Shown piece after piece: positions 521-29,400 of a DNA stretch of 37,958 nucleotides. Both the position numbers and the translations under genes were made by a program. Position 1 is the first letter of the stretch. The number at the start of each line of letters is the position of its first letter. The notes under the pieces were generated by a model. That model was not told the origin of the DNA, did not search any database, and worked only from the letters and a program-made list of their open reading frames with translations. Origin of the DNA: an uncultured Oscillospiraceae bacterium (lineage in GTDB: Bacteria > Bacillota > Clostridia > Oscillospirales > Oscillospiraceae); NCBI GenBank assembly GCA_905235655.1, contig CAJOMA010000001.1:1-37958 (forward strand), written 5' to 3'.

Positions 521-1684
521 TCAGCCGGACAAGGCCTCCGCCATTGACAGTTTCCGCTTTGCGTCGAGATGACCGTAAATATTCGCCGTGGTCTTAATGT
601 CGCTGTGACCGAGCCATTCCTGCACGTCCTTGAGCGAAAAGCCGAGATTCAGCAGATTGCTCGCGGCGCTGTGGCGGAGTTCGTGGAAGCGGATTTTCGG
701 CATCCCCGCCGCCTTGAGCAGTTTCGGAAACTTGCCTGCCACGTAGTCCGGCGAGAAAGGTCTGCCGTCCGGCCAGCGGAACACATAGTCGCTGTCCCGG
801 TATTCCTTGCCGAAAAACTGCCGATCTTTCGATTGCTGCGCTTTCATATCCAGCAGCAGCTGCTTGACGTCCGGCGTCATCGGGAAAGACCGGCGGCTGG
901 AAGTGTTCTTGGTCTTGTCCTTTGCGACGACCGTCATGACCTTCGACACCGTGCGGCGGATCGTAATGGTCTCCGCCTCAAAGTTGACGCAGTCCCAGCA
1001 AAGTCCCAGCGCCTCGCTGCGGCGCAGTCCGAACAGCGCGGTCAGTCGGATCAGCGGGTAAAGCGGCTCGTCTTTGATCTTCCCCAGAAACTCGTCGATC
1101 TGCGACTTGGAATAGAAGTTTGCCTCGAAGCGCTCGCACGTCGGCAGCTTCACGAACTGGCAGGGATTGTTCGGGATCATTCCCTCCGACACGCAGTAGA
1201 GCAGCGTCTGGTTGAGAATGTTCTTGATGAGCTTCAAAGTGCGCGGCGACAGACCGCCCTTGCCGTCCATCCTGCCGGATCTTGCCTTTTCGTTGATATA
1301 GACCTGCAGGTTGTTCTTCGTGATCTCGCAGAGCAGGAAGTTATTGTCGCGAAAATACGGCAGGATTTGGCGCTTCATCAGCAATTCATAGCCCTGCTTC
1401 GTTACCGCGTCGATGGGATGCTCGAAGTCGGCGCATTTTTCCTGGTACCACAGCTTGATCGCGTCTTCAAAGCGCATCGTCGCGCGGCTCGCCTCCTGCT
1501 CTGCGCGGAGCTCCTCGGCTTCTTCATATTCCTTGAGCGTTTCGCGCAGCAGTTTCTGCGCACGAGTCTTGTTGCCCTTCACGGGAAGATCGGTCGAGAT
1601 CCATTTCGGCTTGCGTTTTCCGTTTTCATAAGTGTTGAGAACAATATAATACTTGTTGTATTTGATTTGCAGACTGCCTGTCAT
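521..1684 (-). CDS. int: Tyrosine site-specific recombinase / phage integrase
   Basis: C-terminal RFHELRHSAASNLLNLG...QEWLGHSDIKTTANIYGHLD motif; AAGGAG RBS before ATG at 1684; adjacent to attL. Confidence 0.93.
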   Translation of the reverse strand: MTGSLQIKYNKYYIVLNTYENGKRKPKWISTDLPVKGNKTRAQKLLRETLKEYEEAEELRAEQEASRATMRFEDAIKLWYQEKCADFEHPIDAVTKQGYELLMKRQILPYFRDNNFLLCEITKNNLQVYINEKARSGRMDGKGGLSPRTLKLIKNILNQTLLYCVSEGMIPNNPCQFVKLPTCERFEANFYSKSQIDEFLGKIKDEPLYPLIRLTALFGLRRSEALGLCWDCVNFEAETITIRRTVSKVMTVVAKDKTKNTSSRRSFPMTPDVKQLLLDMKAQQSKDRQFFGKEYRDSDYVFRWPDGRPFSPDYVAGKFPKLLKAAGMPKIRFHELRHSAASNLLNLGFSLKDVQEWLGHSDIKTTANIYGHLDAKRKLSMAEALSG

Positions 1685-1767
1685 ATAAACTCCTTTCTGT
1701 TGACAGGATGAATCGTCCGCCGTTGCAATTCTATTATACAATGCAGCGGCGGACAATTCAAGCGAGA

Positions 1768-2010
1768 TCAACTGGCTTTTTCGTCGCCTACCAGAAATTT
1801 CAGCACATCTTTTTTGCGGATGCGGATGGCGGTGCCGATCCTGCGGCACGGCAGCTCGCCGTCGCGTATCAGCTTATAGATCGTGTTCTTGCAGACGGAA
1901 AGCAATTCCGCTGCTTGCAGCACGTTCAGTACGTCGGGATAATCCTTGAACTGCGTTTTGGGGAAAGCCGGACGCTCCGGCTGCGGGGTGAGAAATTGAA
2001 TATTCGGCAA
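1768..2010 (-). CDS. xis: Excisionase-family helix-turn-helix protein
   Basis: VLNVLQAAELLSVCKNTIYKLIRDGELPCRRIGTAIRIRKKDVLKFL, HTH_17-like; TTG start with GGAGG RBS. Confidence 0.85.
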   Translation of the reverse strand: MPNIQFLTPQPERPAFPKTQFKDYPDVLNVLQAAELLSVCKNTIYKLIRDGELPCRRIGTAIRIRKKDVLKFLVGDEKAS

Positions 2011-2153: not shown

Positions 2154-3443
2154 TTATGCCTGCGGCAGACGGATGCCCAGGAAGCCCCGGACGCGCTTCC
2201 CGCCGAACAGGCGGATGTTGTTCGTGGATTCCAGATGGTATTCGTCCTGATGCTCCGTCAGGAACTGGCTGAAGCTCCGCGGCGAGTACGGCTTGTGTGC
2301 GTTATCCTCGCACCAGTTCTGATAAACGGCATAGAGCTGTTTGGAGCTGGCTTCTGCGTCTGCCTTGAATTCGAAGTAGCCGTCGGATCGCAGGAATTCG
2401 ACGATGTTGTTGCCGTCGGAGATCGCCTCGTTCATATTTGCCCGGGTGCGTTCGCTGATCGTAAACTGATAGTTTTGCTCCAGCAGCCGCTGCAGGCCGT
2501 AGAAGCACCAGAGGAAGATGCCTTCCGCCTCGGCGGTCAGCTTTTCCGACAGATAGGGATCGTCCTTCCGGTTCGGATCTTTCCGCTTCGCGCTCAGGAT
2601 GATCTGCCTGCGGAAGAAGCCGTTGCTCCGGTCGTACAGCGCTTTGATCGTGCCGTTCCCGAAGCCCAAAAACCGGGAATAGAGTTCGCCCTGATAACTC
2701 TGCTTGCTCTTGCGCTCCAGATCAAGCGGGATGTCTGCGGTGATGATCATTTTCAGATAATTCGTTTCCGGCAGGCCTTCCATCTGCATATCGTCGTCCA
2801 CCATCACGAGCGCGTGTTCCAGATCGGCGCGGGCGAAGCGGTTGGTCTCCACCTTGGCGAGATTGCCGTTGACCATATTGGAGCCGAAGACGGACCGCAT
2901 CACAACGCCGATGCGGGATTTTCCCTCGCCGCCGCGGCCGATGATCATCAGCATTTTCTGCGCTCGTGTGGTCGGGATCAGGCAGTAGCCGATGAACTCC
3001 TGCAGGGTGAAGATGTCCTCCACTTCCAGAAGCTGATCGAGGAAAGAGATCCAGACGCCGGGATAGCAAACATCCGGGTTGTACCGGACGGGCAGGCGGT
3101 TGCGGCAGATCTCCTTTTCCTCCGTAAATCTGCCGTCGAGAAAGAGCGTGCCGTTCGCTACATGGATGCGGTCTGCCTGCACCGGCAGTTCGGAAAGATA
3201 CGCTTCGGAGCGAAGCACGCCGATGAGATTGTCGGTCTTTTTTGCAAGGCCGGCAGTCACCCAGGGAGAGAGTTCGTCGTAGATCGCTTTCCGCAGTACG
3301 GTTTCGTCGCCGATCCGTCCGTCCACCGTGAAAAAGCTGTTGTTGACGCAGACCATCGGGTGCCGTTTCAGAAAGTCTTTGCAAAAAGCGACTTCATTGA
3401 CTTTGCCGCCGTCGTACCATTCGGGAAATTCGTTGTTGTTCAA
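2154..3443 (-). CDS. P4/D5-family phage/plasmid primase C-terminal SF3 helicase-like protein
   Basis: Walker A GRGGEGKSRIG, Walker B ALVMVDDDM, NxFFRRQIIL arginine-finger-like segment. Confidence 0.85.
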   Translation of the reverse strand: MNNNEFPEWYDGGKVNEVAFCKDFLKRHPMVCVNNSFFTVDGRIGDETVLRKAIYDELSPWVTAGLAKKTDNLIGVLRSEAYLSELPVQADRIHVANGTLFLDGRFTEEKEICRNRLPVRYNPDVCYPGVWISFLDQLLEVEDIFTLQEFIGYCLIPTTRAQKMLMIIGRGGEGKSRIGVVMRSVFGSNMVNGNLAKVETNRFARADLEHALVMVDDDMQMEGLPETNYLKMIITADIPLDLERKSKQSYQGELYSRFLGFGNGTIKALYDRSNGFFRRQIILSAKRKDPNRKDDPYLSEKLTAEAEGIFLWCFYGLQRLLEQNYQFTISERTRANMNEAISDGNNIVEFLRSDGYFEFKADAEASSKQLYAVYQNWCEDNAHKPYSPRSFSQFLTEHQDEYHLESTNNIRLFGGKRVRGFLGIRLPQA

Positions 3444-4646: not shown

Positions 4647-4832
4647 ATGAAGCAAATCACAATTAAAGAATACGAAGAGTGGCAAAAAAACAAAGCTGAG
4701 AAGGCAAAAGGCCATATCCTGCTGCCAGATACTGTCCGGTTCATCTGCGAGGCCAACGGCTATGACGCTGAGAAGATTGGTCAGCACTTCCTTGAAATTC
4801 TACCGCAGATCTGCCCACCCGAGCAGAAATAA
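4647..4832 (+). CDS. Small conserved-looking mobile-element protein, unknown function
   Basis: 61 aa MKQITIKEYEEWQKNK...FICEANGYDAEKIGQHFLEILPQICPPEQK; C-terminal part repeated at 7841-7963; followed by a terminator hairpin. Confidence 0.55.
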   Translation: MKQITIKEYEEWQKNKAEKAKGHILLPDTVRFICEANGYDAEKIGQHFLEILPQICPPEQK

Positions 4833-4886
4833 TAAAACGCCTCCGACCCGATGTGGTTCAGAGGCGTTGCTGCGTTTATGAGATCA
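4710..4886 (+). repeat. Direct repeat copy 1 flanking the RiPP cassette
   Basis: Aligns without gaps to 7841-8017, about 18 mismatches in 177 bp. Confidence 0.9.
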
Positions 4887-5834
4887 ATCCATAACTACGA
4901 CTATCTTTCCGTCTACACCTTTTTCTTGAGCTTTGATGGCCCGTTTTATGTTTGAAAACTTAAAGGAGGCGCCTATAAAAGGAGTAATATTGTGCTCGTC
5001 GATAAAGGCAAAAATCTTGTCTATTGTAGCCTGAGTGGGATAGTTTGAGAAAAAACCGGTGAGATAACATCCGTTCGGTATTTCCTTTATCGGATCAAAT
5101 CCGTTCAAATAATATTCTCCACCTAATATTCCGGTATTACAAACGATTCCTCCGTGGTAAAGATGACTGAGAGAATTTCTGATTGTCTTCGGGCCAATTA
5201 GCTCTAATATCTTATTTGCATAAAGTCCGTCCGGCAGTTTGTTTGCAGGATCAAAGACAGCTTCACATCCGAGGTCGGTGATCAGATGCATTTTCTCTCT
5301 TTTGTGCGTTGTACCGTACACTTTGCATCCGAGTGCTGTTGCGATTTGCATGGCGGCATATCCCAGCGCAGAAGTAGCACCTCTGATAAGCAGTATATCG
5401 GTCGGTTGCAGGTTCAGGCATTCAAACAAAGACCCCCATGCCGTAAAAAAGGTCTCCGGAATTGCTGCAAGATGTTCCGCATCAAGATTTGAAGAGATGT
5501 GAAACACTTTCTGTACAGGCAAGATGGCATATTCTTCATAGGAACCGTTAAAATTCCTTCCGAGTCCGCCCATCAGAGAACAGACCAGATCACCCTTTTC
5601 AAAACCGTCATCAAGTGAGTCCTCAACAATTCCCACGCATTCAATCCCCGGTACGATCGGCTTCTTGATATAATCTGCACGAATTTCATTGACACGAAGC
5701 ACGAGCTCCGAGTGGTTCATGCCAAAGGCTATTATTTTTACGAGTATCCATCCTTTTCTGGCCTTCGGCATTTCAAGATCTTCAAGGACAATATCGTCAC
5801 TGTTGGCAACATCTTTTAAGACTACAGCTTTCAT
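4884..5834 (-). CDS. MDR-superfamily (quinone reductase-like, Rossmann) oxidoreductase
   Basis: IVPGIECVGIV, ATSALGYAAMQIATALGCKVYGTT; start overlaps the stop of the radical SAM gene (ATGA). Confidence 0.85.
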   Translation of the reverse strand: MKAVVLKDVANSDDIVLEDLEMPKARKGWILVKIIAFGMNHSELVLRVNEIRADYIKKPIVPGIECVGIVEDSLDDGFEKGDLVCSLMGGLGRNFNGSYEEYAILPVQKVFHISSNLDAEHLAAIPETFFTAWGSLFECLNLQPTDILLIRGATSALGYAAMQIATALGCKVYGTTHKREKMHLITDLGCEAVFDPANKLPDGLYANKILELIGPKTIRNSLSHLYHGGIVCNTGILGGEYYLNGFDPIKEIPNGCYLTGFFSNYPTQATIDKIFAFIDEHNITPFIGASFKFSNIKRAIKAQEKGVDGKIVVVMD

Positions 5835-6871
5835 TCTTCAACCTCCATCCAGCACTGCGGATCTGCGTCATACATATTATGTGTATATCCGTAGGTGACG
5901 GACGGACAGCCGCGACAGTATGCCTTCAGCTTGCATTTATTGCATTTTACAAATTTATCATACTGTCTGTATTCATCAAACCTTGATGATGTCCACAGGT
6001 CATACAGGTCCTCGGTCATTACCGATCCTATCTCTGATTCCATTCTCCGACAGGCGTAGACTGCTCCCGTCGGGAGGATCGTCACGTGGTTACGCCCGCA
6101 ATTACAACCATCTACAATGGCATTGGCAGGAAGGGCCTCATCCGGAGAAAACAATCCTTTTTCGTATTGATATAAAGTCCACAGATGATCCTTCAGCTGA
6201 TAAGTCGTTTTTGAGTCCTTGTGTGTCATGTAACGCTCGTAGCACTCATCCATATATGCCTTATACTCCTGTGGAGTCATGTGAATATCAGGATCATACG
6301 CTTTTTCAATGCTTGTCGGACAATAACGTCCAATTGCGTATACATCAACGCCAAGTTCATCGACCAGATCTATCAGGGCAGGGATCTCTTTATGATTTGT
6401 TTTGGAAACGGTAGACATGACCGCTGCCCACATTCCTGACTCTTTAATGAGTTTGATTGCCTTAAGTGTAGCCTTGAAGCTACCCGGTTTGCGGAACATA
6501 TCGTGCGTTTCTTCCAAGCCATCAAGGGAGACCTGATATTTGACGCAGCCGAGGTCATGCATTCTTTTGCAGACGTCCGCAGTCAGGTGGAACGGATTCC
6601 CCATGATGCAGAAGCGCAGCTCTTTTTCATGAAAATATTCAAGCAGTCTCCAGAAGTCCGGGTGAAGGATCGGATCGCCGCCAGTGAGATAGATATATGG
6701 TGTTCTGTTGATTCTGTCGCAGAAGTCGATGATCTGATCTGTGACATAAATCATATCCTCGAAGGGCATTGTGACGAGCGCAGGGTGCCCTTCAGAAAAA
6801 ATATAGCAATGCTTACACCGCTGATCGCATACGTCAGTGATGTGCCATTGGATCGCAAAATAACTCTTCAT
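5831..6871 (-). CDS. Radical SAM/SPASM peptide maturase (ACGX-type system)
   Basis: CDQRCKHC (CX3CX2C), GGDPILHPDF, C-terminal SPASM Cys set CNCGRN...YACRR...CNKCKLKAYCRGCP...C; adjacent Cys-repeat peptide. Confidence 0.92.
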   Translation of the reverse strand: MKSYFAIQWHITDVCDQRCKHCYIFSEGHPALVTMPFEDMIYVTDQIIDFCDRINRTPYIYLTGGDPILHPDFWRLLEYFHEKELRFCIMGNPFHLTADVCKRMHDLGCVKYQVSLDGLEETHDMFRKPGSFKATLKAIKLIKESGMWAAVMSTVSKTNHKEIPALIDLVDELGVDVYAIGRYCPTSIEKAYDPDIHMTPQEYKAYMDECYERYMTHKDSKTTYQLKDHLWTLYQYEKGLFSPDEALPANAIVDGCNCGRNHVTILPTGAVYACRRMESEIGSVMTEDLYDLWTSSRFDEYRQYDKFVKCNKCKLKAYCRGCPSVTYGYTHNMYDADPQCWMEVEE

Positions 6872-6890: not shown

Positions 6891-6929
6891 TAAAAACGAA
6901 GGCGTCAACTCGTCCGGAATTGACGCCTT
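6891..6929 (-). terminator. Attenuator-like intrinsic terminator between precursor and maturase genes
   Basis: 10-bp stem 6899-6908/6920-6929 followed on the minus strand by cgttttta. Confidence 0.75.
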
Positions 6930-6935
6930 GCTTCT

Positions 6936-7127
6936 TTACTTTGCTTCCGGATCTTTGGTTCCGCAAGCAGGTGCGGGTTCTGGATCTTTCGTACCGCAAG
7001 CAGGTGCGGGTTCCGGATCTTTCGACCCACAAGCAGGCGCCGGATTAGGATCAGCAGTTCCGCAGGCAGGTGCCGGAGCCGGATCTGCAGTTCCACAAGC
7101 GGTGCTTGCAACCTTTTCGTCGAACAT
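6936..7127 (-). CDS. ACGX-repeat RiPP precursor peptide
   Basis: MFDEKVAST + ACGTADPAPAP / ACGTADPNPAP / ACGSKDPEPAP / ACGTKDPEPAP / ACGTKDPEAK; ggaggaaaa RBS. Confidence 0.92.
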   Translation of the reverse strand: MFDEKVASTACGTADPAPAPACGTADPNPAPACGSKDPEPAPACGTKDPEPAPACGTKDPEAK

Positions 7128-7257
7128 GGCGTTTTCCTCCTTTCAAAGATTCTATTTATATTTTACTGAGATTCCAGAAAAAAGCACTGGTCAAATATAG
7201 ACTAAGAGTCGGATTTTGTGATATAATAAGCAAAACTACGCATAAGGAGTTTCTTCC

Positions 7258-7839
7258 ATGAGTCAATATAAAGAAGCCAGAGAGCGCACGAAGGCAAAGA
7301 TCGAAGATGCCTACTGGAATTTGATGATAAACAACGAGCGGATAACGGTAAAGAAAATCATCGAGAAAGCCGGTATTCACAAGTCCACTTTCTATTTTTA
7401 TTATGAATGGGTCGATGATGTTCTGGCAGAGATCAAAACACGGATGATGAATCTGCTTATATCAACGATTGAGAGTAAGAATCGAGATAAGGGCAACTTT
7501 CAGCAGGTCATGGTAGAAATGCGTAAAATGTTTCAAGAAAATCGAAAGTATCTCATCCCGTTGGTTTTAGAGCAGCGTGGCGGAGAGTTTGCTGTAAATT
7601 ATCGAGAATTCATCAAAGAGCATTTTGCAGAAGATATCGGTTTGGATTACAAAACCGGCAACGATGTAAAAAATGATGTTGCAAATTGTGTTCTGGCCGG
7701 ACTGGTCGAAATAATGCTGTATGAGTTATCCAGTGAGATAATTCCTGACGAGTTTACCTATAAGATTGGAGATGGCATTATTAAAAAAGGCGTTGCGCTG
7801 ACATTAAACGATGATTTGAATATCAAATTTGGAAAGTAG
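7258..7839 (+). CDS. TetR-family-like transcriptional regulator
   Basis: ITVKKIIEKAGIHKSTFYFYYEWVDDVLAEI HTH; divergent from the precursor gene. Confidence 0.8.
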   Translation: MSQYKEARERTKAKIEDAYWNLMINNERITVKKIIEKAGIHKSTFYFYYEWVDDVLAEIKTRMMNLLISTIESKNRDKGNFQQVMVEMRKMFQENRKYLIPLVLEQRGGEFAVNYREFIKEHFAEDIGLDYKTGNDVKNDVANCVLAGLVEIMLYELSSEIIPDEFTYKIGDGIIKKGVALTLNDDLNIKFGK

Positions 7840-7840
7840 G

Positions 7841-8017
7841 GGCCATGTGCTGCTGCCGGATACTGTCCGGTTCATCTGCGAGGCCAACGGCTATGATGCC
7901 GAGAAAATCGGCCAGCACTTCCTTGAAATCCTCCCGAAGATCTGCCCAACCGAGCAGAAATAACAAAACGCCTCTGATCCGATGTGGTTCAGAGGCGTTG
8001 CTGCGTCTATGGGATTA
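7841..8017 (+). repeat. Direct repeat copy 2 (truncated sORF C-terminus plus terminator)
   Basis: Constant +3131 offset to 4710-4886, ~90% identity. Confidence 0.9.
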
Positions 8018-16000: not shown

Positions 16001-18187
16001 TCAGCTGTACAATAGTTGTTGCCGCGCAATCAGATCGGTGAAGACGCCGCCCTTTTCGAGCAACTCGTCGTAGGTTCCGTCTTCCACGATCCTGCCACCG
16101 TCCAGCACCAGAATGCGGTTGCAGCGTTTGATCGTAGAAAGCCGGTGCGCAACGACGATTCGGGTGCAGTCCATGGCGTCCAGCGCCTCGGAGACCTGCT
16201 TTTGCGTCTTGTTGTCCAATGCGGAGGTCGCCTCGTCAAAGATGAGCAGCTTCGGCTTCGGAGCGATGGCGCGGGCGATCATCAGCCTCTGACGCTGCCC
16301 GCCGGATATGCCGCCCTGCCCTTCGGAGACGACGGTAAACATCCCCATGGGCATGGCGCGGATGTCGTCCGCGATTCCCGTCTGCTCCGCCGCCGCCCAA
16401 GCGTCCTCCAGAGGCAGCTCGGGACTGGTGATGACGATATTGGAATAGATGTCGCCCTGAAACAGTCCGGCGTCCTGCATGACGGTGCCGATCCTTCTGC
16501 GCAGGGAGAGCAGGTCCAGATTCTTGACGTCTTTGTTGTCATAGTAAATCGCGCCTTTTTCGGGCGTTTCAAAGCCTAACAGCAGCCGCACCAGCGTGGA
16601 TTTGCCGCTGCCGGTTCGCCCCACCACGGCGATGTATTCGCCGGAGCTGATTTTCAGCGACAGGTCGTCAAGAACATACGGCGACTGAGCATCATAGCGG
16701 AAGCTTACATGCTCCAGCACGACGTCGCCGGAGATATCGCTGACGATCTGCTTGCGCTCCGCCGTCTCCGGCTCGGTTTTCAAAAACGGATCGGCCAGCT
16801 CCAGAGCAGGCCGGATTTGCGCGGCGGACAAAGCGATGGAGGACACTGACAGAAACGCACCCATCAGCATGCCGTATGCCGCAGTGAAAGCAAAGTAATT
16901 GGACTGACCGATATTGCTATTTGCTGCCAGATAGTACAGCGCGATGGTTGACGTCAGACTGATGGCGGCAGAGATCACGCTGTTGATTTTGAGGAACGTC
17001 GGCGGATTGTAGGTGAGCGCAGCACCTTCGGAATACAAATTCATCCATTTGGCAAAGACGCGCTTTTCCGCGCCGGAGAGCTTGATCTTCTGCACCCCGG
17101 TGATCAGACTGTAGCTCATGCCGGACTCCTTCGCATTGTGTACCATCTTCTTTCGGTTGATCCGAATCTGCGCCAGTGTGGAGGCGACGGAAAAACACAC
17201 CGTCACGGCAACGATAAGGAGCGACGGAAGCGCCAGCGTCGGGGCGAAGCGGAAAATCTGGGTGACGTACAGCAGCGAGGTCAGGGCGGTCAGAGCGGTG
17301 CTTACGACCGTGCTCAGCAAGGTTGCGCATAGCTGGTTGACCGACCCGGCGCGGCATTTCAGATCGCCGGGGCTGTAGTTGCGAAAGAAACCTGCGGGAA
17401 GAGACAGCAGCCGCATCATCATAGACGCCTGTACGCCGAGGGAGACCTTGGCGTCAAGCCTGCTTTGCACGAGAGCTTTTATGACGGACAGGAGCTGCGA
17501 GGACAGCGATACGCAAAGGATGCAAACGGCGGCGCCAATGAGAGCGCTTGCCCGTCCGGAGTTCAGCACCGGACCGGTCAGCGCACGGATGATGCGCGGC
17601 ATAAACATCCCGACCAGCGTAACGGCAAGGGTCGCCGCCGCGATTAGAATAATATCGCTGAGAGACACGCAGCGCTTCATATACAGCAGCAGATCGGGAA
17701 TGCCCAGCTTTTTCTGCGGAAGCGGACGGTAGAAGCAAACAGCCTGCGCTGCAAAGAGGGGAGCGGTCTTCGCGTTCAGCCTTACCCGCTTCCCGGTCTT
17801 CGGGTCGTTGAAACGGTAGCCTGTGACCGCGCAGGGCAGCAGCGCGACCGGGAATCCGTCCTCTTTCGTAAAGGCGAGGATCGGTCCGCTGGCGTTCTTG
17901 TACCAGCCGTCTGTCAGCTCCACGTTTCGGCGCATGAGACCGTAGGACCGAAGACAGTAGTCCAACTGCTCGTCGGCAGCTTTGATCTCTTCGGGAATCT
18001 CGACCGGTTTATAGTGATAATATTTCAATATTTCGTCGATTGCGCTTTTCGTTACGATACGCGCGTCGCCGATTTTTTCTGCGCCGCGCGTTCCCAGCAC
18101 GACCCCGGTGATCCGAACAAACGAATCCTCCAGAAGCTGCTGATCTGCGTTGCGCCGTTCTTCGATTTGACTTTCAAACCAATTCAT
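16001..18187 (-). CDS. NHLP-type peptide export ABC transporter, permease/ATPase lacking the C39 domain
   Basis: Walker A VGRTGSGKST, signature ISGGQRQRLMIARA, IFDEATSALD; long non-peptidase N-terminal region. Confidence 0.88.
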   Translation of the reverse strand: MNWFESQIEERRNADQQLLEDSFVRITGVVLGTRGAEKIGDARIVTKSAIDEILKYYHYKPVEIPEEIKAADEQLDYCLRSYGLMRRNVELTDGWYKNASGPILAFTKEDGFPVALLPCAVTGYRFNDPKTGKRVRLNAKTAPLFAAQAVCFYRPLPQKKLGIPDLLLYMKRCVSLSDIILIAAATLAVTLVGMFMPRIIRALTGPVLNSGRASALIGAAVCILCVSLSSQLLSVIKALVQSRLDAKVSLGVQASMMMRLLSLPAGFFRNYSPGDLKCRAGSVNQLCATLLSTVVSTALTALTSLLYVTQIFRFAPTLALPSLLIVAVTVCFSVASTLAQIRINRKKMVHNAKESGMSYSLITGVQKIKLSGAEKRVFAKWMNLYSEGAALTYNPPTFLKINSVISAAISLTSTIALYYLAANSNIGQSNYFAFTAAYGMLMGAFLSVSSIALSAAQIRPALELADPFLKTEPETAERKQIVSDISGDVVLEHVSFRYDAQSPYVLDDLSLKISSGEYIAVVGRTGSGKSTLVRLLLGFETPEKGAIYYDNKDVKNLDLLSLRRRIGTVMQDAGLFQGDIYSNIVITSPELPLEDAWAAAEQTGIADDIRAMPMGMFTVVSEGQGGISGGQRQRLMIARAIAPKPKLLIFDEATSALDNKTQKQVSEALDAMDCTRIVVAHRLSTIKRCNRILVLDGGRIVEDGTYDELLEKGGVFTDLIARQQLLYS

Positions 18188-18240
18188 AGATGGTTTCTCC
18201 CTTCGCGTGGGGTAGAGTGGAGAGTGGGGAGTTTTGCTTG

Positions 18241-18588
18241 TTATTGAGAATTGCGAATTGTTTTTGTGGATGCGGAAAGAAGCTTGCGCAATTCCTCAGC
18301 ATCCCGAAACATGCTGTTGTATTGTTTTTCCGTCAAATAACCTGTTTTTTGCAGAAGCTCCAGCCAATACAGGGTTTCTGCCGTCTCTTTTAATGCAATG
18401 TAGAGCTTTGCCTGAAAGTCGTTTCTGCTGATCGCGCATTCCGCTTCTGCCAGATTGGCACCGATCGACGTCCCGGAACGAAGCAACTGCTTTGACAGCA
18501 CATACTCATGCTTTTCCTGCCGCAAGAACTGATACAACCGTACAATCCGGATCGCAAACTCTTTGCTTTTATTGATGGTCAAACTCAT
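18241..18588 (-). CDS. Four-helix-bundle protein (S23/IVS-type)
   Basis: KSKEFAIRIVRLYQFL...LLRSGTSIGANLAEAECAISRNDFQAKLYIALKETAETLYWLELL. Confidence 0.9.
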   Translation of the reverse strand: MSLTINKSKEFAIRIVRLYQFLRQEKHEYVLSKQLLRSGTSIGANLAEAECAISRNDFQAKLYIALKETAETLYWLELLQKTGYLTEKQYNSMFRDAEELRKLLSASTKTIRNSQ

Positions 18589-18638
18589 TTTGCAATCTCC
18601 CTATTCCCCAAAACTCCACTCTCCACTCTCTAAACTCC

Positions 18639-20816
18639 TCACTCAGAAGTTACTAACTCCGCGTAAGCGCCGTTCAGCTTCATCAGCTCGTCGTGTGTGC
18701 CGCGCTCGACGACACTGCCGTGGTCGAGAACGATGATCTCGTCGCAGTCGCACACAGTGGAAAGGCGGTGGGCGATGACGATGCAGGTGATGCCCCGATC
18801 CCGGATGGCGTTGACCACCGCGTGCTCCGTTTTGGCGTCGAGAGCGGAGGTCGCCTCGTCAAGGAGAATGATCGTAGGGTCCTGCGCCAGCACGCGGGCG
18901 ATTTCCAGCCGCTGGCGCTGCCCGCCGGAGAAGTTTCTGCCGCCGCTGACCAGCCTGTGCCGGTAGCCGCCGGGAAGCTGCGTAATATCGTCGTGGAGTT
19001 GTGCGTCGCGCGCCGCCAAAATCATTTCAAAGTCCTGGATGGAGTCGTCCCACATCTTGATGTTGTTCGCTATGGTGTCCTCAAACAGGATGATATCCTG
19101 ATCTACCACCGCCAGCGAACCGACCATGACCTCCCGCGGATAGGCGGATCGCGGCTTGCCGTCAAAGAGGATCTCGCCGCTCCATGGCTGATATAAGCCC
19201 GAAATCAGCTTGGAGATCGTGGATTTGCCGCAGCCGGAGACGCCGACGAGGGCGATCCGCTGTCCTGCTTTGACGGACAGGGAAAAGTCGCTGATCAGCG
19301 GCTCTTCCAGCCGGGAATAGCCAAAGGTGACGTTTTTCAGCTCGACGTTGCCGCGGAGCTTTGTCAGCTCCGCCACCTCTGTTTCACGCTCGACGGTGTT
19401 TTCGTCCACGGGGTACTCCATCACGTCCTCGACGCGCTCCATTTGTGTGCGCATTTCCTGCATGGTCTGCCCCGCGCCGACCAGCGTCATGGCAGGGGAG
19501 AGGAAAGAACCTAAAAAGCCCTGAAACATCAGCACCGCGCCGAGGGTGAAGCTGCCCTCCATGGTCATCCACACGCCGACTGCCAGCACGGCGCAGTTGG
19601 CAAGTGTGGAGAAGAGCGCGGGGATCATCCCGAGAAGCTGGTTTGTTTTGGCCGCCTTGACACTCTGCGCGTTCACGGACGCCTGATAGCCTGACCACTT
19701 TTGAAAGAATCCGTTTTCCGCGCCGCTTGCCTTGATGGTCTCGATCATGTCGATGCCAGAGACCGTCATCGCCTCCAGCTTGCCTGCGTCGCGCATCTGG
19801 ATACGGGCGATGTTCATGCGCTTTGCGGAGATGATCCGGGACATGACGGCGTTCAGCGCAAGGGTCACGATGCCAATGAGACTCAATAGCGGGCTCTGCG
19901 TCAGCATCAGAACCAAATAGAATATCACCAGGACGGAGTTCAGCAGAAGCGGCGCGAAGGTGCCCACCAGCGTCCCCGCGATGGAGGCGTTCATGGTCGC
20001 GCGGCTCTGAATATCGCCCGCCAGCCGCTGCGAGAAAAATTCCATAGGCAGGTGCAGTACCTTCCACATATAGCCGGTGCTGCCGAGCACAGCCATTTTG
20101 CCGTTGATCCGAAGGGAATAGACGGCCTGCACCCAAGCGACGATCAGTTGAACCGCCGCCAGCAGAAGCAGCACGGAGAGGAAGGGGTACAGCCAGTCCC
20201 GGTTGCTTCCGGTCAGCAGGCGATCCATAAAAATGCGGGAGGCAACCGAGTTTGTGATTCCGAACAGATAGCTGATCGCAGTAGTCAGCATGACGAACAC
20301 TACGGCAGCGCCCGCGCCGATCAAACGTCTGCGGGCAAAATCTACCGTGCTGCGGCGTTCGCCGCCGGGCAGGAAGTCCTTTCCCGGAACGGGAATGATG
20401 ACTACGCCGGTAAACGCCCTGTCAAATTCCTCCCAACTCAGCTTGACCGACCCTCTGGCGGGGTCGTTGATGTACACGTGTCTGCCCTGAAACCCGCAGA
20501 GCACGACAAAGTGGTTCATGTTCCAGTGAAGGATACAGGGGAACTGTCCCTTTTCCTTCAGCGTCTCCGGCTCCATGCGGAACGCCTTTACATCGAAGCC
20601 GTAGCGCTCGGCGGCACGGTAGATATTCTTCGCCGTCGCGCCGTCCCGGCTCACGCCGCAATCTACGCGCGCCTGCTCCAGCGGCACCCATTTGCCGTAA
20701 TACGCCATCACCATGGCGAGCGCGGCAGCGCCGCATTCCGGCGTCTCCAACTGCATCACGACGGGGACCTTGGCAACCCCGCTTGTCCGTGTGAGTTTCA
20801 CTTTGCGTTTTCCCAT
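18639..20816 (-). CDS. NHLP-type ABC transporter with N-terminal C39 peptidase
   Basis: C39 motifs ETPECGAAALAMVMAYYG, HWNMNHFVVL, INDPARG; ABC motifs GVSGCGKST and FSGGQRQRLEIARVL. Confidence 0.92.
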   Translation of the reverse strand: MGKRKVKLTRTSGVAKVPVVMQLETPECGAAALAMVMAYYGKWVPLEQARVDCGVSRDGATAKNIYRAAERYGFDVKAFRMEPETLKEKGQFPCILHWNMNHFVVLCGFQGRHVYINDPARGSVKLSWEEFDRAFTGVVIIPVPGKDFLPGGERRSTVDFARRRLIGAGAAVVFVMLTTAISYLFGITNSVASRIFMDRLLTGSNRDWLYPFLSVLLLLAAVQLIVAWVQAVYSLRINGKMAVLGSTGYMWKVLHLPMEFFSQRLAGDIQSRATMNASIAGTLVGTFAPLLLNSVLVIFYLVLMLTQSPLLSLIGIVTLALNAVMSRIISAKRMNIARIQMRDAGKLEAMTVSGIDMIETIKASGAENGFFQKWSGYQASVNAQSVKAAKTNQLLGMIPALFSTLANCAVLAVGVWMTMEGSFTLGAVLMFQGFLGSFLSPAMTLVGAGQTMQEMRTQMERVEDVMEYPVDENTVERETEVAELTKLRGNVELKNVTFGYSRLEEPLISDFSLSVKAGQRIALVGVSGCGKSTISKLISGLYQPWSGEILFDGKPRSAYPREVMVGSLAVVDQDIILFEDTIANNIKMWDDSIQDFEMILAARDAQLHDDITQLPGGYRHRLVSGGRNFSGGQRQRLEIARVLAQDPTIILLDEATSALDAKTEHAVVNAIRDRGITCIVIAHRLSTVCDCDEIIVLDHGSVVERGTHDELMKLNGAYAELVTSE

Positions 20817-20820
20817 GCAT

Positions 20821-21243
20821 TCACCTGCTTTCCAGCAGGAAGCTGATGGGATGCGCCGTTTCCGTCACGACGACGCCGTCGTAGGCGCCGTCCGGGAGCT
20901 CGACCTCCGCCGTACCCACGGAGCGGCCGTATTCATCCGACGAGGCGGCGGCAATCCGGTATTCCTGTCCGGAAACGCGCAGCGTCATCCCGTCCGCCAG
21001 CGTTTCCGAGGCGAGCGGAACAATCATCGCCGTGTGATCCTCGACGATGACCTTGACCTCCGCAGTGGTTTCCAGCGTTCCCATCATCGACCATGCAAAG
21101 ATACCGACCAGAAGCAGAATTACCGCGGCAAGAAGCACCCAAATCCCCGGATTTGTCACGCGAAGATAGCCGTTGAGCTGCTCCGGAGAGGAAATGCGGT
21201 CTATCGTTTTCTGTCTGAAAATTTTTTGATCGTTATCTGACAT
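20821..21243 (-). CDS. Short HlyD-like NHLP secretion protein
   Basis: ISSPEQLNGYLRVTNPGIWVLLAAVILLLVGIFAWSMMGTLETTAEVKVIV, one TM plus short periplasmic/extracellular part; GGATGGAG RBS. Confidence 0.75.
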   Translation of the reverse strand: MSDNDQKIFRQKTIDRISSPEQLNGYLRVTNPGIWVLLAAVILLLVGIFAWSMMGTLETTAEVKVIVEDHTAMIVPLASETLADGMTLRVSGQEYRIAAASSDEYGRSVGTAEVELPDGAYDGVVVTETAHPISFLLESR

Positions 21244-21368
21244 CTTACTCCATCCTTCCGTTCCGTTCGGCAAACATTTTGCTATTTTATTTTATTTTAT
21301 CATATAATCCTTGCTACGACAAGATTATTATGGTAAAATAAAATACAAAAGAAGTATCAATTGCAAAC

Positions 21369-23192
21369 TTGATGGAAGGCGAAACGACATATTTCTTCGC
21401 AGGCTCCTGCTGCGGAAAAAAGAAGGTGAGAAATACGAAGCGGCTCTTATGGCTGCTCCTTGCGCTGGGCGTTTTGCTCGGCACGCTTGCCGACGCCGTC
21501 GCGGCATCTGACGGCTCGGCGGAAGGAGCGGACTATCTGATAAAATATAAGACTCCGCCGGATGAAGAGCCCTTCCATGTGGTCGGCGCAGCGGAGCTGG
21601 AGCGGCTGCTGGAGAAGGACGCGCTGCTCTGGTATGAGCCGGATGCGGAGCTGCCGCTGAACGACCTCCTGCCGCCGGAGGCGGAGAGTCCGAAGCGTTC
21701 GGCGCAGGATCGGTGGGCGACGGATATGATCGGCGCCTCCGCCGCCGTGGAGGCAGGCTTTATCGGTCAGGGCGTCCGGGTCGGCGTCATCGACTCCGGC
21801 GTTGCGCCGCACGCCGATCTGTTGGACAATCTTGCTGCAGGCGGAAACTACATTGAGGGCGCAACTGACCCGTCGGATACCTCTGACTCCTACGGACACG
21901 GAACCAGAGTGGCGGGCTTGATCGCCGGACACGGCGAAACGTCAAGTACCGGCGCCGCCCCGGGCGCAACCATCGTTCCTCTCAAATGCACCGACGGCAA
22001 GACGGTAAAGGTCAGCGCGATTTGCCGCGCCGTCTACGGCGGTGTCGACGACTTTGATTGCGATATTTTGAACATGAGCCTCGGCTTGACGACGGATTAC
22101 GAGGCGCTTAAAGAGGCAGTGGCTTATGCGCAGGCAAACGGTGTTCTGGTGGTTGCCGCTGCAGGCAACGGCGGAGGCACGGCTGTCTACTACCCGGCAG
22201 GCTACGAGGGAGCGCTCGGCGTCGGCGCGGTGGATCGTGACGGCGTTGTCTTCAATAACTCCAACCGCAATCAAACGGTCTTTTTGACCGCTCCCGGCGT
22301 CAGCGTTCCGACGCTTCACCCGCTCGGCGGCTATACGACGGCAACCGGAACCTCCTTTGCTGTGCCGCTGGTCTCGGCGTCTGCCGCCGTGCTCATGAGC
22401 GCGGCGCCCTCCCTCACAGCGGAAGAAATCTCTGCGCTGCTCCGGGACGGTGCGCTCGACGCGGGCGTCGAAGGATGGGATTCGTCCTATGGCTGCGGGA
22501 TTGTCAACCTTGAAAACAGTTTGGCATGCCTGCGGAAAGACGATCCTCCGGCACCGCCGGAGCCGTCAGTCTTCGCACTTGTCTCCACTTGCGAGCAGGG
22601 AGCGGAATGCCCTCTGTATCGCTTTGCGGATTTACATCCGAACGCATGGTATCACGACGGCGTCCATTTCGTTCTGCACACGGGCTGGATGGCTGGGATC
22701 GCCGAGCAGCGCTTTGACCCGGACGGCATTACCACCCGCGCCATGCTGGTAACAACACTCTACCGCGCAGAGGGAGAACCGGAGAGTCAGAGTGAAGCCC
22801 CGTCTTTCCCGGATGTAATCTCTGAACGGTATTATACCAATGCGGTTCTTTGGGCTGCCGAAACACAAATTGTAACGGGCTATCCGGACGGCAGCTTTCG
22901 ACCGGACGAACCGATCACGCGAGAGGAAACGATGACGATGCTCTGCCGGTACGCCGCATGGAAAGGCGCGCCTGCCTCACAGGAAGGGGAGCTGCCGGAC
23001 TTCCCCGATGCAGATCAGGCGGCGGACTACGCACAAGACGCATTGCGCTGGGCCGTGCGGGCGGAAATCCTGCGCGGCACAACCGCCCCGGACGGGCAAA
23101 CGCTGCTTGCCCCCAAAGCTGCCGCGACCCGCGCACAGCTTGCCGCCATGCTGCTGCGGCTGTGCAAACTCTTACGGAATCAATTAAAATGA
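21369..23192 (+). CDS. S8 subtilisin-like serine protease with C-terminal SLH domains
   Basis: Triad contexts VGVIDSG, GHGTRVAG, GTSFAVP; three SLH-like repeats (NAWYHDGVHFVLHTGWMAG...). Confidence 0.92.
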   Translation: MMEGETTYFFAGSCCGKKKVRNTKRLLWLLLALGVLLGTLADAVAASDGSAEGADYLIKYKTPPDEEPFHVVGAAELERLLEKDALLWYEPDAELPLNDLLPPEAESPKRSAQDRWATDMIGASAAVEAGFIGQGVRVGVIDSGVAPHADLLDNLAAGGNYIEGATDPSDTSDSYGHGTRVAGLIAGHGETSSTGAAPGATIVPLKCTDGKTVKVSAICRAVYGGVDDFDCDILNMSLGLTTDYEALKEAVAYAQANGVLVVAAAGNGGGTAVYYPAGYEGALGVGAVDRDGVVFNNSNRNQTVFLTAPGVSVPTLHPLGGYTTATGTSFAVPLVSASAAVLMSAAPSLTAEEISALLRDGALDAGVEGWDSSYGCGIVNLENSLACLRKDDPPAPPEPSVFALVSTCEQGAECPLYRFADLHPNAWYHDGVHFVLHTGWMAGIAEQRFDPDGITTRAMLVTTLYRAEGEPESQSEAPSFPDVISERYYTNAVLWAAETQIVTGYPDGSFRPDEPITREETMTMLCRYAAWKGAPASQEGELPDFPDADQAADYAQDALRWAVRAEILRGTTAPDGQTLLAPKAAATRAQLAAMLLRLCKLLRNQLK

Positions 23193-23452: not shown

Positions 23453-26400
23453 ATGAAAAAAACGTTGTCGCGGCTGCTTTCCGCATGCCTCTGCATGTTG
23501 ATGCTCTTCCAGAGCTCCGAGGGCATCATTGCCCCCGTTTACGCAGACCCCGTAATCGACATTCCGCTCTCTGTGCCGCAGACGCTGCAGGACGGCGGCA
23601 ACTATTTCTTCGTCCGCGAGGATTACAGCATATCCGAAAAAAGCGAAGGAAAGCTCTATATCCCCGTCCAGAGAACCGGCGACCTCAGCGCGGAAGCGGA
23701 CATTACCCTGAAGCTGGTGGATATGACCGCCCATTACGGCGTCAACTACACCGCAGAAATACATAACGCCGAGCTTGATCCCACGATGGAGCTGGGCGGC
23801 GTCGCCGTGGTGGACCTGTTCCTGAACGGCGAATACGAGGAGATCGACCCCGACGAGTACAACGACGCGATCGGGCAGGCGGTCTATGAGGCAGGCGGCG
23901 CGGACCTCCTGTCGGCCGACGGCGAGGTCATCGGACATTTAACGGGCTTTCCGCTCGATGACGAGGGCAACCCTGTTTTGACAGAGGAAGCGGCAGCCGG
24001 CGCAGCAAATAGCAACGTGACGCCCGAAGCAGCGCCGCAGGCGATAGCTGCCGACGCAGCCACGTCTGACGCGCAGTCGCTGCGCGCGGCGAGGGATTCT
24101 TATACCGGCACGGTCTCCGACCGTCAGCAGTTAGAGGGGCCTGCCGGCTTTGCAGACGCCCTGTCTGGCGCAAATCCGCTCTCCGGGACGGAGGCGGTGG
24201 CAGAGCAGGCCGTTGAGGACGCCTACCCGGGCAGAGATTACACCCTGCATTTTGACGCCGGAGAGGAAGCCAAATTTCTGGTCGTCACACCCCTGTATTC
24301 CGAAGCGGCAGAGGGCGACAGCATCATCATGCTGATCCTCAAGGATCTGCCGGAGGGCTACACCGCGCCGGAGAACTTCAATCTGCGCTCGGTCGTCATC
24401 AGCGACGAGGACCCGCGGACGCCGGTCACGGTCAGCTTTGCGCAGGCGGAAATCAAGGCAGAAAACGGCACCGCCTCCATCACGGTCACCCGTGAAGGGC
24501 GCGTCAATTCCGTGGTCGGCGTGATGCTCCAGTCCGCCGACGGCACCGCGACCGCCGGCGACGACTACGGCGGCGTCGGCGCGAAGCTCTATTTCTCCAT
24601 GGGCGTCACGCAGCGCACCGTGGAGCTCCCTGTGACCCACGACGTCACGGAGAAGGATTTTAAGGTCTATCTCTCGCCGCTGCCCGACGACGGCGGCGTC
24701 ACGATCGGCACGTCCTCTGCGCGGGTCGTCATCCCCGCCGCAGAACGCGAGGCGGAGCTGATGGAGGCGAAGGACGCCGACCGCCTTGGCGATCAGTGGA
24801 ACCTGCAGGATCGTTTCGACGAAAAGTCGAGCCATGTCAGCTACCGGAATAACGGCTACGGCCTGTATATGGAGACGGAGGAGGACAAGTGCTGCGGCGA
24901 ATACTTCGATGTTTACGTTTCCAGCAGCTATGCATGGGACGGTATCAGCGTCTATTGCAAGCTCCATACCTGGTACTCCATGATTCAGTTTATTATCCGA
25001 ACGTGGGGACGGAGCACGAGCTCGTGGACCACGCTCTATGATCATAAATACGGAGACTGCGAGACCAAGGACAACCAGACCGTAGAGGTCTATTACGGAA
25101 CGGAGGAAACTCCGAGCTATATCAGACTCAAGGACTGGTGCTACGAGGTGCACAACGGCTTCCGTGACAGCTATACGGACCTCACGATCTATTCCGTCCG
25201 GCCAATCAAGCGCAAGTTCACCGTCCAGTTACAGCAGCCGCAGGTTCTGCACTATGAGGGCTTGACGGACGAGCAGATTCTGGACAGCTACGAGCACGTC
25301 GTGCTGGATGACAGCTTTGAGACGACCGGCACCTACTGGACGAACGGACATTTTTCCGTTTCCCGTCTGGGATCGCAGGAATGGTCCAGATTCTACCAGT
25401 TGGTCGCAGTGCATCCCACGAACGGCTCGACCTACACGCTGGGCACGAACAACGGCAACTCCGGCTCTATCAGCGTCGACCTCACCGAGAGCATCATCAA
25501 CGCGCTCGCGAACCGCGGCTACATTACCTGGAGGAGAGCCTCCAACGGCTCTTATTCCGGCACCATTCAGATTCGGCCGGTTTTCAAATACGTGAAGGAC
25601 GTCACCGTGCAGGTGCGCGATACCGGCTATGGCGGCGTGGGCATCGAGGGCGCGCCCGAGCTGCTTTGGGATTTCAATGCCGACGGTGCGATGAGCGCAG
25701 TGATGGGCGCAGGCTCCCTGCATAACGTCAGTTGGGCGGGAGAAAAAGATGCCGAGGGCAACAGCTATTATACCTTCACTGCCACGGCGGCGGACCCCTA
25801 CGTCTCCATTGATATGCCCTACGACAACGCTTCCAATCTCGTTTGGGCGGCGGTACGCGCCAAGAACCTCTGCAATGCGGACGCCATCGAGCTGTACGGC
25901 AGATTCAACGACAGCGGTCCCGCCAGCGCGTCGTGCGTCCACGTCGATTTGGAGCACGACACGCAGTGGCATACCTATCTGATCAACGTCCCGGAGGAGA
26001 ACGTGCGGACGGTTAACGCCTTCAAGGGCGAGACCATCACCCAGACGGCATGGAAGGGCAGGGTGAACTGGCTCCGGATCGATCCGATCTGGTATCAGAA
26101 CGGCACGGAGATATCCGGCGACCGGATCCAGATCGACTATGTTGCCTTCTTCCAAACGAAGGAGGCGGCGGAAATCTACCTTTCCGGAACGGGTGCTGCA
26201 AAAGTGCTTGCTCCCGGGAAGCATACCTTCCACTACGGCGACAAGCTGACCTTCCTGCCTGTCAATACGCCTGAAAGCACGGCTGCCGCCCTGACTCCCG
26301 TGGGGATCGGCTACCTCAGCCGCGCAGGCGGCGCCTCCGGTGCGTTGACCGGCGAGACTGATTGCAGCTATTTTGTGAAAAGTCTCGATCCAAAAAAGGA

Positions 26401-29400
26401 CGATTCTCCCACGTATCTTCTGACGGAGGATTATTATGAATTCTGGCAGGTGTTCAGCGATAAGGCAAATGCCGTGCGGCTCCGTGTGCCGGAAAGCGAT
26501 CTGCAGTATCTCGACACCGGCAAGGGCGTCTTTACCGGTCTGACGCCCACAGAGACCAGCGGCGGGTACGCGTACTATACGGTGAAGCCCTCCGTACTTA
26601 CAAACGAATTCATCGAGCTGACCGCGCTGACCAAGGACGGCACGCACGTGCCGCTGTGGTCGCTGCCGAACAACAGCAAGACCTACTCCGGCAACGTCTT
26701 CTGGTTCTATGCCGGCGTCAAGGCGGGCGACAACGTCGTTACCCTGCGCGTGGATCGCACCGCATCCGATCACGCCTACTATGCCTTTGACGGAACGGCG
26801 TACACCTCCACGCTGAACCTCACCACCGGACAAAACGCAGACGACATCATCCCCGTGAACGGAGCCGGCATCGAAATCCCGTTCGGCGGCGCAACCAGCT
26901 TCACGGACGGCGCCTTCACCACCTCCGCCATCTATCTCAAGGGCGGCACATGGCTGCGCTACCTTGTCTCCTACAACGGGCAGACTGCCATTCGAGAGGT
27001 CAAGCTCGCTGCGGCGAGCGCGCCGAAGCAGGACGCCGTCCATAACGAGCTGCAGGGCGGCGCGCAGACGAAGGTGCAGGCAGTGCCCGTGAGCCTCGGC
27101 GGCGTGCAGGTGCAAAGCTGGGCGGCAGGCGGCGCACGCTTTGAGAACGTGACCGTGAAGCTGAACGGCTTCAACTGCAAAGCGATCAGCGCCATGGAGA
27201 TGAACGGCAAGAAGCTGGAGATCGACGTCACCGTCGATCCAGGTCTTGGCTACCTTGGCACCGACAAGGACGGCAATACCGTCACCATCCCCGAAAAAAT
27301 CGTGGACGTAACGCTCTACTTCCAGAATCAGCTCACGGGCGAAGTCCACGGGGTATACTCCACGACCTCGGAGGAGGATGGGAAAAAACTGAAATGGGAC
27401 GCGCAGACCAACACCGCGACACTGACCATTATGGAATTCTCCCCGGAGAGCCCGACGCTCTACACCTACGGCGACGTGCTGATGGCAAGGCTGACCACCG
27501 ACCGTCACCCGGGCGGCCTCTCTTCGGAGACAAAAATGGTCTATCAGCCCGCCTCGACCGGCTTCACGGTCATCGCCGATCAGGACTTTGAGCCCAAGAC
27601 CATGGACCTCGAAGTGAACTTCGCCGACTTCCTCGCGGGCGACGGCTTGCAGGAAGGCAGCCGCCGCAGCTTCGGCCAGTGGCCGTGGATGGGCGAGATC
27701 ACCGCTGTCGTCCATACCTTCAACGTCCTCTCCGCCTCCGTGTCCGACCGCGGCGCGCAGGAGGTTATTAAGGCGCTGGAAGACATGGGGAAAAGCGGTC
27801 TGCAGTCGGACGACGAAGCGGAACTGATGGGCTTCGGCCGCCAATGGGCGGTCAGCGCGGCGGCGGTCGTCAAGGAGACCATGAACGGCGGCGTGCGCGT
27901 GATGGTCGGCGTGGCGTTTACCACCGGCACCGAGGGCTTCCAGAAAACAGCCAATCCCTACGAGGCAAAACAGAACTTCGATTTCTGGGACGAGTTCCTC
28001 AGCAGGGGCGTTCACGGTTACGGCGACCCTAACAAGGCGATGGAGAAAATCTTCAAGAGCACCTTCGGCGGGGGCGCGTTTACCTTCAGCCTCTATCTGG
28101 GACTGTACGTGGACTTCGGCTTTATCGCCATTCAGGATACCGACGCGAGCGGTCATACGGAAATCAGCCACGATCACGTGCTGCTCGGCGCAGGCGGCTT
28201 CGTCGGCGGCAAGGTCACGGCAGGCTATACCTTCGCCTTTTACACGGTGATCCCGTGGTACATCAACTTTGAGGCGGCGATCGACGTCACGGTCTTCCTC
28301 GGCGCAGAGGCAGACCCGAACAAAACACTGGACGAGGCATATTATAACTCCGATCAGGTCTTCGGCAACGACTGGGGCTTCAACGTGGAGCTCGTCGGCA
28401 GAGGCGGCTTCTCCGGCACTGTCGGCGTCGGCGCGTATAAGATTATCGGCGTTCGCGCCACCGCGACAATCGGCGTCAATATGGGCATGAGCAACAATAT
28501 GGGCGAATGGTATCCGTATCTGGACGGAACGAGCTGGATCAGCTACTCCACGGACTTCACTGCCACCGGTACCATCGACTTTATTTTCGGCTCCATCGAG
28601 CTCTTCAGCGCCTCCTGGCCGCTGCCCTTCAACGACGGCTGGCTTGGCTGGTTCCAGCAGGCGAGCCGCGCCGAAAAGCTGATTCTTCTTGCAAATAAAG
28701 GCATCAACGCCGGCCGCGGCACGGCGGCGGCTCGCGCAGAGGCGCGCAGACAGGTCGACGAGCTGGCGGCATGGCTGGATCTTTATACCGGCAGCTATCA
28801 GGACGTCCGCAAACGTGTCAACGCCGTGCAGGAATACTGCTACGATAACGGCATCATCACGTGGAATGAGTATAATTTGATCGACATGCTCCGCATGTCC
28901 GGCATTGTCGGTGGCGCGATCAATCAGGCGTACCTGACCGAGAACCCACAGGACACATCCCTGTCCTTCCACGTCAATGACCACGTCAATTCCAACTGGG
29001 TCGCGGACGACGCCTCCCTGATGTCGGCATTCGGACAGGTCAGCAGCCATCCGGTTCTGGAGAACGCGCCTGCGTCCACCGCCAGCAAGATCATCGCTTT
29101 GGGCGATAACCGCTTCCTGGTGACCTTCCTGAACGACGACAACACCCGTGACCGTCAGCAGGCGTATGCGCTCAGTTACTCCGTCTACGATGCAAACGCC
29201 GGCACATGGACGGCGCCGAAGGTCATTCAGGAGGACGAGACCGCAGACAGCAGCGCCAACTTAGTGGACGCGGGCGATAAGGTCATCGTCACATGGACAT
29301 CCGTCGCGCAGGAGAAGTATGACGCGCTCAAGGCACAGGTCGCCGAGGAGCTTGCCGCGCAGAACGGCGCGCCCGCCACAGACGGGCTGGTACAGGACGC

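Follow-up and report, generated by a model that had tools for sequence, protein, structure and literature searches.

A radical SAM enzyme encoded next to a short cysteine-repeat peptide raises the question of which reaction the enzyme may perform on that peptide, and what the product does in the cell. We analyzed such a pair in a 37,958-nucleotide stretch of DNA from an uncultured Oscillospiraceae bacterium (assembly GCA_905235655.1, contig CAJOMA010000001.1), here called the window. An initial annotation, made from the sequence alone, had described five 11-residue ACG[T/S]xDPxPAP repeats behind about nine leader residues, next to a CX3CX2C radical SAM enzyme with a SPASM cysteine set. The features referred to below are the following.

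4710–4884, plus strand: left copy of a 175-nt direct repeat that brackets the cassette
4884–5834, minus strand: NAD(P)H quinone oxidoreductase-like MDR reductase, 316 aa, overlapping acgM by 4 nt
5831–6871, minus strand: acgM, radical SAM/SPASM enzyme, 346 aa, 502.6 bits against TIGR04340
6899–6929, minus strand: 13-bp hairpin with a T-rich run behind it, in the acgA–acgM gap, likely an attenuator or partial terminator
6936–7127, minus strand: acgA-like precursor peptide of 63 aa, in which nine residues are followed by five ACG[TS]xDP units
6939–7100, minus strand: repeat array (repeat family D1) with a period of 33 nt or 11 aa, from A10 to K63
7136–7141, minus strand: AGGAGG ribosome binding site of acgA, of which GGAGG is retained in relatives
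7180–7217, no strand assigned: non-coding block, conserved in an alignment of 13 loci, that separates the regulator from acgA; candidate operator/promoter
7258–7839, plus strand: divergent TetR-type regulator, with weak matches to TetR-family models, conserved in cassette relatives
7841–8015, plus strand: right copy of the direct repeat, also 175 nt, matching the left copy at 90% identity

AcgA and AcgM within the ACGX family

Translation of the minus strand at 6936–7127 gives MFDEKVASTACGTADPAPAPACGTADPNPAPACGSKDPEPAPACGTKDPEPAPACGTKDPEAK (63 aa). Nine residues precede the repeats, as had been estimated, and the five ACG[TS]xDP units stand, with a 33-nt periodicity that was recovered independently at the DNA level. 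The PAP spacer occurs four times, between units, and the fifth unit ends as ACGTKDPEAK. ACGxxDP is found five times in the real peptide and never more than twice in 200,000 residue shuffles. An antisense ORF at 6928–7200 on the plus strand was dismissed as a by-product of the acgA repeats. The acgA reading frame and its repeats are confirmed as real.

The neighboring enzyme was correctly described: the CX3CX2C cysteines of AcgM (C15, C19, and C22) and its seven SPASM cysteines (C256, C274, C310, C313, C319, C322, and C340) are all invariant in our alignment. The ACGX label given in the initial annotation is borne out by profile search: AcgM reaches 502.6 bits with TIGR04340 (radical SAM/SPASM, ACGX system), above its cut-off of 400, and so belongs to this family. 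Since NCBI annotates such peptide/enzyme pairs as acgA/acgM, the ACGX kind is already known; the literature searched (ACGX, TIGR04340, acgM/acgA) yielded no characterized product chemistry. New here are the window's subtype, its cassette, and a link to SbtM, within a family that is itself known and uncharacterized. AcgA matched no NCBI or Pfam family (E ≤ 1) and stays below the 28-bit cut-off of TIGR04341, the NCBI precursor model, against which a Roseburia peptide scores 73.8 bits.

The radical SAM core of AcgM begins right at the N-terminus, which leaves no space for a peptide-recognition domain. Its predicted structure has a mean pLDDT of 71, with values below 50 in the C-terminal SPASM region. 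As this region is poorly predicted, the fold search with the model, topped by BlsE, SkfB, anSME, and SuiB, confirms the general fold only. A role in defense was also considered and rejected, the sole matches being weak ones to viperin models that reflect the shared radical SAM fold.

Our survey covered 391 genomes of one class and found AcgM over the cut-off in 16 of them. Cultured carriers of the system include Blautia schinkii and Roseburia sp. 831b. In a quick tree with long branches, the enzymes of the window's group make up a clade of their own (99) next to the canonical one (87), and they are always accompanied by a regulator of TetR type and an enzyme resembling quinone reductases. Absence of the ACG repeat beside related enzymes would have counted against the initial annotation, and the relatives do retain it: an AcgA-type peptide lies 5′ of acgM in every related locus covering that region, with two (L008) to five units. 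In the window's subtype, the repeat cysteine is preceded by Ala and followed by Gly in 51/51 cases each, and position +4 is Asp in 51/51, so that every repeat is CX3D. Canonical AcgA peptides (ACGSACGAADKPEEKPA and similar) have Gly at +1 in 137/137 CG sites and Ala at −1 in 136/137; their position +4 is Asp in 74 and Cys in 50 of the 137.

The window shares with the ACGX system (TIGR04340/TIGR04341) an AcgM above the cut-off, ACG repeats directly upstream, the gene order and, in most loci, the hairpin in the gap. It differs from canonical loci in its peptide, where ACGxxDPxPAP units unmatched by TIGR04341 replace ACGSACGAADKPEEKPA, in a TetR-type instead of an HxlR regulator, in an MDR instead of a nitroreductase, in having no SirTM or macrodomain gene, and in its separate enzyme clade. 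The genome of the window has one more ACGX locus (contig C24; L001, L053), a canonical one whose regulator is of the HxlR type and whose ACG-repeat peptide is longer. The Methanosphaera plasmid pNP174 (L041, 5673–8024) carries an archaeal ACGX-like locus with ACGxE repeats and the same kind of MDR; AcgM is split by a frame disruption in this record, with 4Fe-4S and helix-turn-helix genes upstream and BREX downstream. Because its ACGxE repeats lack Asp at +4, ACG emerges as the part that never varies, usually joined by an acidic residue close by as a second element. A distant AcgM relative (L060, 4504–5583; 37% identity, 308 bits, below the cut-off) adjoins a gene for a putative membrane protein, and no ACG peptide was found near it.

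A four-gene cassette between direct repeats

The MDR (4884–5834), the regulator (7258–7839), the hairpin between acgA and acgM, and the redox context of the relatives were all absent from the initial annotation. A locus scan of bacterial and archaeal genomes, with a reach of close relatives, returned 19 loci, nearly all of them in metagenome-assembled genomes from ruminant guts and labeled Clostridia, Oscillospiraceae, Solobacterium, Bacilli, Erysipelotrichaceae, or Spirochaetia. The order of divergent TetR-type regulator, peptide, AcgM, and MDR is constant in loci whose AcgM is 76–99% identical to that of the window, and the genes outside the cassette are different at each locus. In cassette relatives, there is usually a 4-nt overlap between the end of acgM and the beginning of the MDR gene. 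The MDR itself is present in 16/16 cassette loci covering the region, and also in L041, L049, L054, and L056. Comparison with L006 gave dN 0.04 and dS 0.53 for acgM, and dN 0.03 and dS 0.60 for the MDR gene; both genes are under strong purifying selection.

The acgA–acgM gap contains a stable hairpin in every cassette relative examined and in the majority of canonical ACGX loci, and the hairpin sequences are often unrelated. Its natural reading is a partial terminator, which would leave the peptide in excess over the enzyme. Neither an exporter nor a protease was found in or beside any cassette examined.

Each copy of the 175-nt repeat carries the end of a small ORF and a AACGCCTC...GAGGCGTT hairpin, and a sequence search detected only these two copies in the genome. 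Because the cassette exactly fills the interval between them, we read it as a discrete unit that was inserted or captured between direct repeats. Genes for a tyrosine integrase (521–1849, minus strand) and a P4-type primase (2154–3443, minus strand) adjoin the cassette and suggest an integrated element nearby. We discarded a phage or virus origin of the cassette, as no match was obtained in phage records or viral contigs. The search for plasmid copies gave four distant plasmid records, none of the window's subtype.

Elsewhere in the window, an NHLP-type bacteriocin export pair lies at 16001–21273 on the minus strand. It comprises a C39 peptidase/permease/ATPase (18639–20816, minus strand; TIGR03796, 907.8 bits, cut-off 853.3) and a partner ABC protein (16001–18187, minus strand; slightly below the cut-off of TIGR03797), accompanied by a small ORF with a hydrophobic stretch (20821–21273, minus strand); no precursor peptide for this pair was identified in the window. 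A subtilase with S-layer homology domains (21369–23192) precedes a 2982-residue protein (23453–32401, plus strand) with S-layer homology, Calx-beta, and Ig-like domains.

Candidate chemistry of the repeat cysteines

Outside its own family, the best model for AcgM is SbtM (TIGR04082), with 193.8 bits for the window's enzyme and 165 for a canonical AcgM, both far below the cut-off of 350; the PapB model gives 74 and 65 bits, respectively. In the tree, which is a quick search with long branches, AcgM and SbtM share a branch (99) that excludes the SCIFF/PapB-like maturases and the AhbD-type enzymes. Since no PapB reference over the cut-off was found among 299 genomes, the ranthipeptide side of this tree is made up of SCIFF-type maturases and below-cut-off matches to the PapB model. 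AcgM and SbtM both conserve, among other residues, F5, Q8, D16, C51, F73, G91, P93, Q113, M152, R182, A273, R275, and S279, which do not occur in the ranthipeptide-type and AhbD-type sequences used for comparison. Both enzymes also have the motifs F-x-x-Q-W-H-x-T-x-x-C-D, at the radical SAM cysteines, and A-C-R, at a SPASM cysteine; F5, Q8, D16, A273, and R275 belong to these motifs. Judged by sequence, AcgM is specifically related to SbtM, its nearest characterized enzyme, although it lacks the N-terminal part of about 190 residues found in SbtM.

In SbtM loci, taken from genomes of the phylum of L021, the substrates are peptides with repeated [GS][CU]G. The SbtM locus L103 encodes a pair of SbtA-like peptides, of which the first has Sec (TGA) and the second Cys in the same kind of motif. 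AcgA has the repeated small residue-[Cys/Sec]-Gly pattern of thio(seleno)oxazole RiPP substrates, and differs from SbtA by containing Cys only, by having almost no leader, and by its Asp at +4. SbtM converts Cys or Sec to a thio(seleno)oxazole, a product that has lost four hydrogens (review PMC11002830). AcgM is kin to SbtM, and its Ala at −1 and Gly at +1 of the substrate are nearly invariant, much like the [GS][CU]G in substrates of SbtM; we therefore favor conversion to a thiooxazole, at −4 Da per repeat, with a probability of about one half. Against it, SbtM substrates generally lack Asp at +4, so this chemistry leaves the Asp of AcgA unexplained. It is plausible that each AcgA repeat receives one modification.

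5-Thiooxazoles are also formed in EGKCG repeats by MNIO enzymes, which are unrelated to radical SAM enzymes. The resulting peptides bind copper and are tied to oxidative and metal stress, in one case without a nearby protease. These captophorins and bufferins resemble AcgA in being Cys-Gly repeat peptides with an intracellular stress role proposed in the literature; they differ from AcgA/AcgM in enzyme type, in having an RRE partner, and in their leader peptide. No copper gene was seen in the cassette, though thiooxazole peptides bind copper.

The main rival is a thioether between Cys and Asp, the change of −2 Da per cysteine that the initial annotation had put forward. It is possible because every repeat of the window is CX3D, as in the substrates of PapB, which makes Cys-Asp/Glu links in CX3D/E at −2 Da each and tolerates other spacings (PMC9413430). 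CX3D holds across all 51 repeats of the subtype, L056 keeps ACGxxD in 5/5 units despite diverged linkers, and the archaeal peptide retains a Glu at +3. The thioether is nevertheless not the best supported chemistry, the nearest characterized enzyme being SbtM. AcgM reaches only 74 bits against the PapB model (NF047865, cut-off 340), for which SCIFF-type maturases score about 290, and it falls outside the thioether-maturase branch. A SCIFF maturase (TIGR03974) had no match in the window's genome (E ≤ 1e-80), and AcgM lies outside the SCIFF branch. On the substrate side, +4 is Cys rather than Asp for 50 of the 137 canonical cysteines, and the invariant Gly at +1 stays unexplained because PapB tolerates varied intervening residues. 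AcgA thus resembles freyrasin (PapA/PapB) as a multi-site substrate with one CX3D per repeat; the freyrasin and SCIFF systems differ from AcgA/AcgM in that the enzyme belongs to a different branch, AcgA has little leader, and an invariant Gly follows its Cys. Taken together, we put the thioether at about one fifth.

An equally modest probability goes to another change at Cys, Gly, or Asp, such as an alpha-carbon thioether, an epimerization, or an oxidized Cys, which would still make AcgA a multi-site RiPP. SPASM chemistries are diverse and the heme synthase AhbD is among the nearest characterized relatives, so that homology alone leaves the reaction unfixed; the residues common to AcgM and SbtM, together with the small-Cys-Gly motif, favor an SbtM-like chemistry instead.

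Redox setting and proposed role

In canonical loci, an HxlR regulator lies upstream, and the slot after acgM is taken by a nitroreductase or by an MDR like that of the cassette. Further on comes a PNPOx-like protein fused to ferredoxin domains, often with a protein-ADP-ribose hydrolase macrodomain and a SirTM-type sirtuin. Canonical loci running into nitroreductase, PNPOx-ferredoxin, macrodomain, and SirTM genes are L040, L043–L048, L051, L054, L055, L057, and L059. SirTM matches were obtained in 65 of the 391 genomes and in 15 of the 16 with acgM (Fisher p 7e-12, uncorrected for kinship); in 12 of these 16, comparison of positions placed SirTM downstream of acgM at a distance of no more than 5 kb. 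The window's own genome has no SirTM match (E ≤ 1e-40), and its cassette is not part of a SirTM extended operon. The literature connects SirTM/Zn-macrodomain systems with the response to oxidative stress and describes what they target outside GcvH-L operons as unknown (PMC11490716, PMC4518038); neither of these two papers contains the terms radical SAM or SPASM. The cassettes lack an exporter and a protease, and the relatives have nitroreductase, HxlR, and SirTM/macrodomain genes as neighbors; the system therefore probably serves redox or soft-metal handling inside the cell, rather than making an antibiotic.

The best explanation as a whole, which we hold tentatively and somewhat short of an even chance, is a distinct, transferable ACGX subtype whose enzyme installs thiooxazoles in the manner of SbtM and whose product is an intracellular thiolate peptide. 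The regulator, on some signal, would free acgA transcription, and the hairpin 3′ of acgA would let only some transcripts pass, giving more peptide than enzyme. AcgM would recognize the Ala-Cys-Gly unit itself, not a leader, and oxidize each Cys by four electrons to a 5-thiooxazole fused to the preceding Ala, five per peptide. Modified AcgA would be neither exported nor trimmed by cassette products. It may function within the cell as a thiolate peptide that binds soft metals or is redox-active, and the NAD(P)H-dependent MDR encoded by the overlapping gene would be its redox partner.

A more specific and rather doubtful proposal is that modified AcgA serves as a ribosomally made sulfur redox carrier, analogous to lipoyl-GcvH-L. 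Both the SirTM/Zn-macrodomain operon and ACGX loci have a candidate small sulfur carrier with oxidoreductases; the window's cassette differs from the SirTM extended operon by having no lipoylation genes and no SirTM in its genome. The oxidoreductases serving the carrier would, with the same low probability, be the nitroreductase, the PNPOx-ferredoxin fusion, or the cassette MDR. No more probable is the remainder of this proposal, in which SirTM and the Zn-macrodomain would ADP-ribosylate the canonical form reversibly, perhaps on the Asp of ACGxxD, and the window's cassette would be a stripped-down version that dispenses with ADP-ribosylation. If true, it would provide a candidate target for SirTM/Zn-macro pairs that lack GcvH-L (PMC11490716).

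It is improbable that AcgA works through its free cysteines, as a metallothionein-like or sacrificial thiol peptide, while AcgM acts on another target. AcgA is indeed Cys-rich and leaderless, its cassette has no exporter, and relatives have redox neighbors; however, acgA and acgM are adjacent in every relative examined that covers both regions, usually with a hairpin between them, and metal thiolates need no invariant Ala and Gly around Cys. Least probable of all is a secreted antimicrobial or signaling RiPP exported from elsewhere, for instance by the NHLP pair at 16001–21273: repeat precursors near radical SAM enzymes are mostly filed as RiPPs and a C39-peptidase exporter lies about 9–11 kb off, but no exporter or protease adjoins any cassette relative, the flanking genes vary by locus, and AcgA has no double-glycine leader.

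For ACGX, a family named and modeled at NCBI, this analysis supplies two competing chemistries, a tie to SbtM, and a redox setting. For the five-repeat AcgA, the two chemistries predict −20 Da (thiooxazole) and −10 Da (thioether), which a single mass spectrum would separate. Being compact and nearly leaderless, the cassette may also be a convenient tool for multi-site modification. The link to SirTM offers a concrete candidate for SirTM targets beyond GcvH-L operons.
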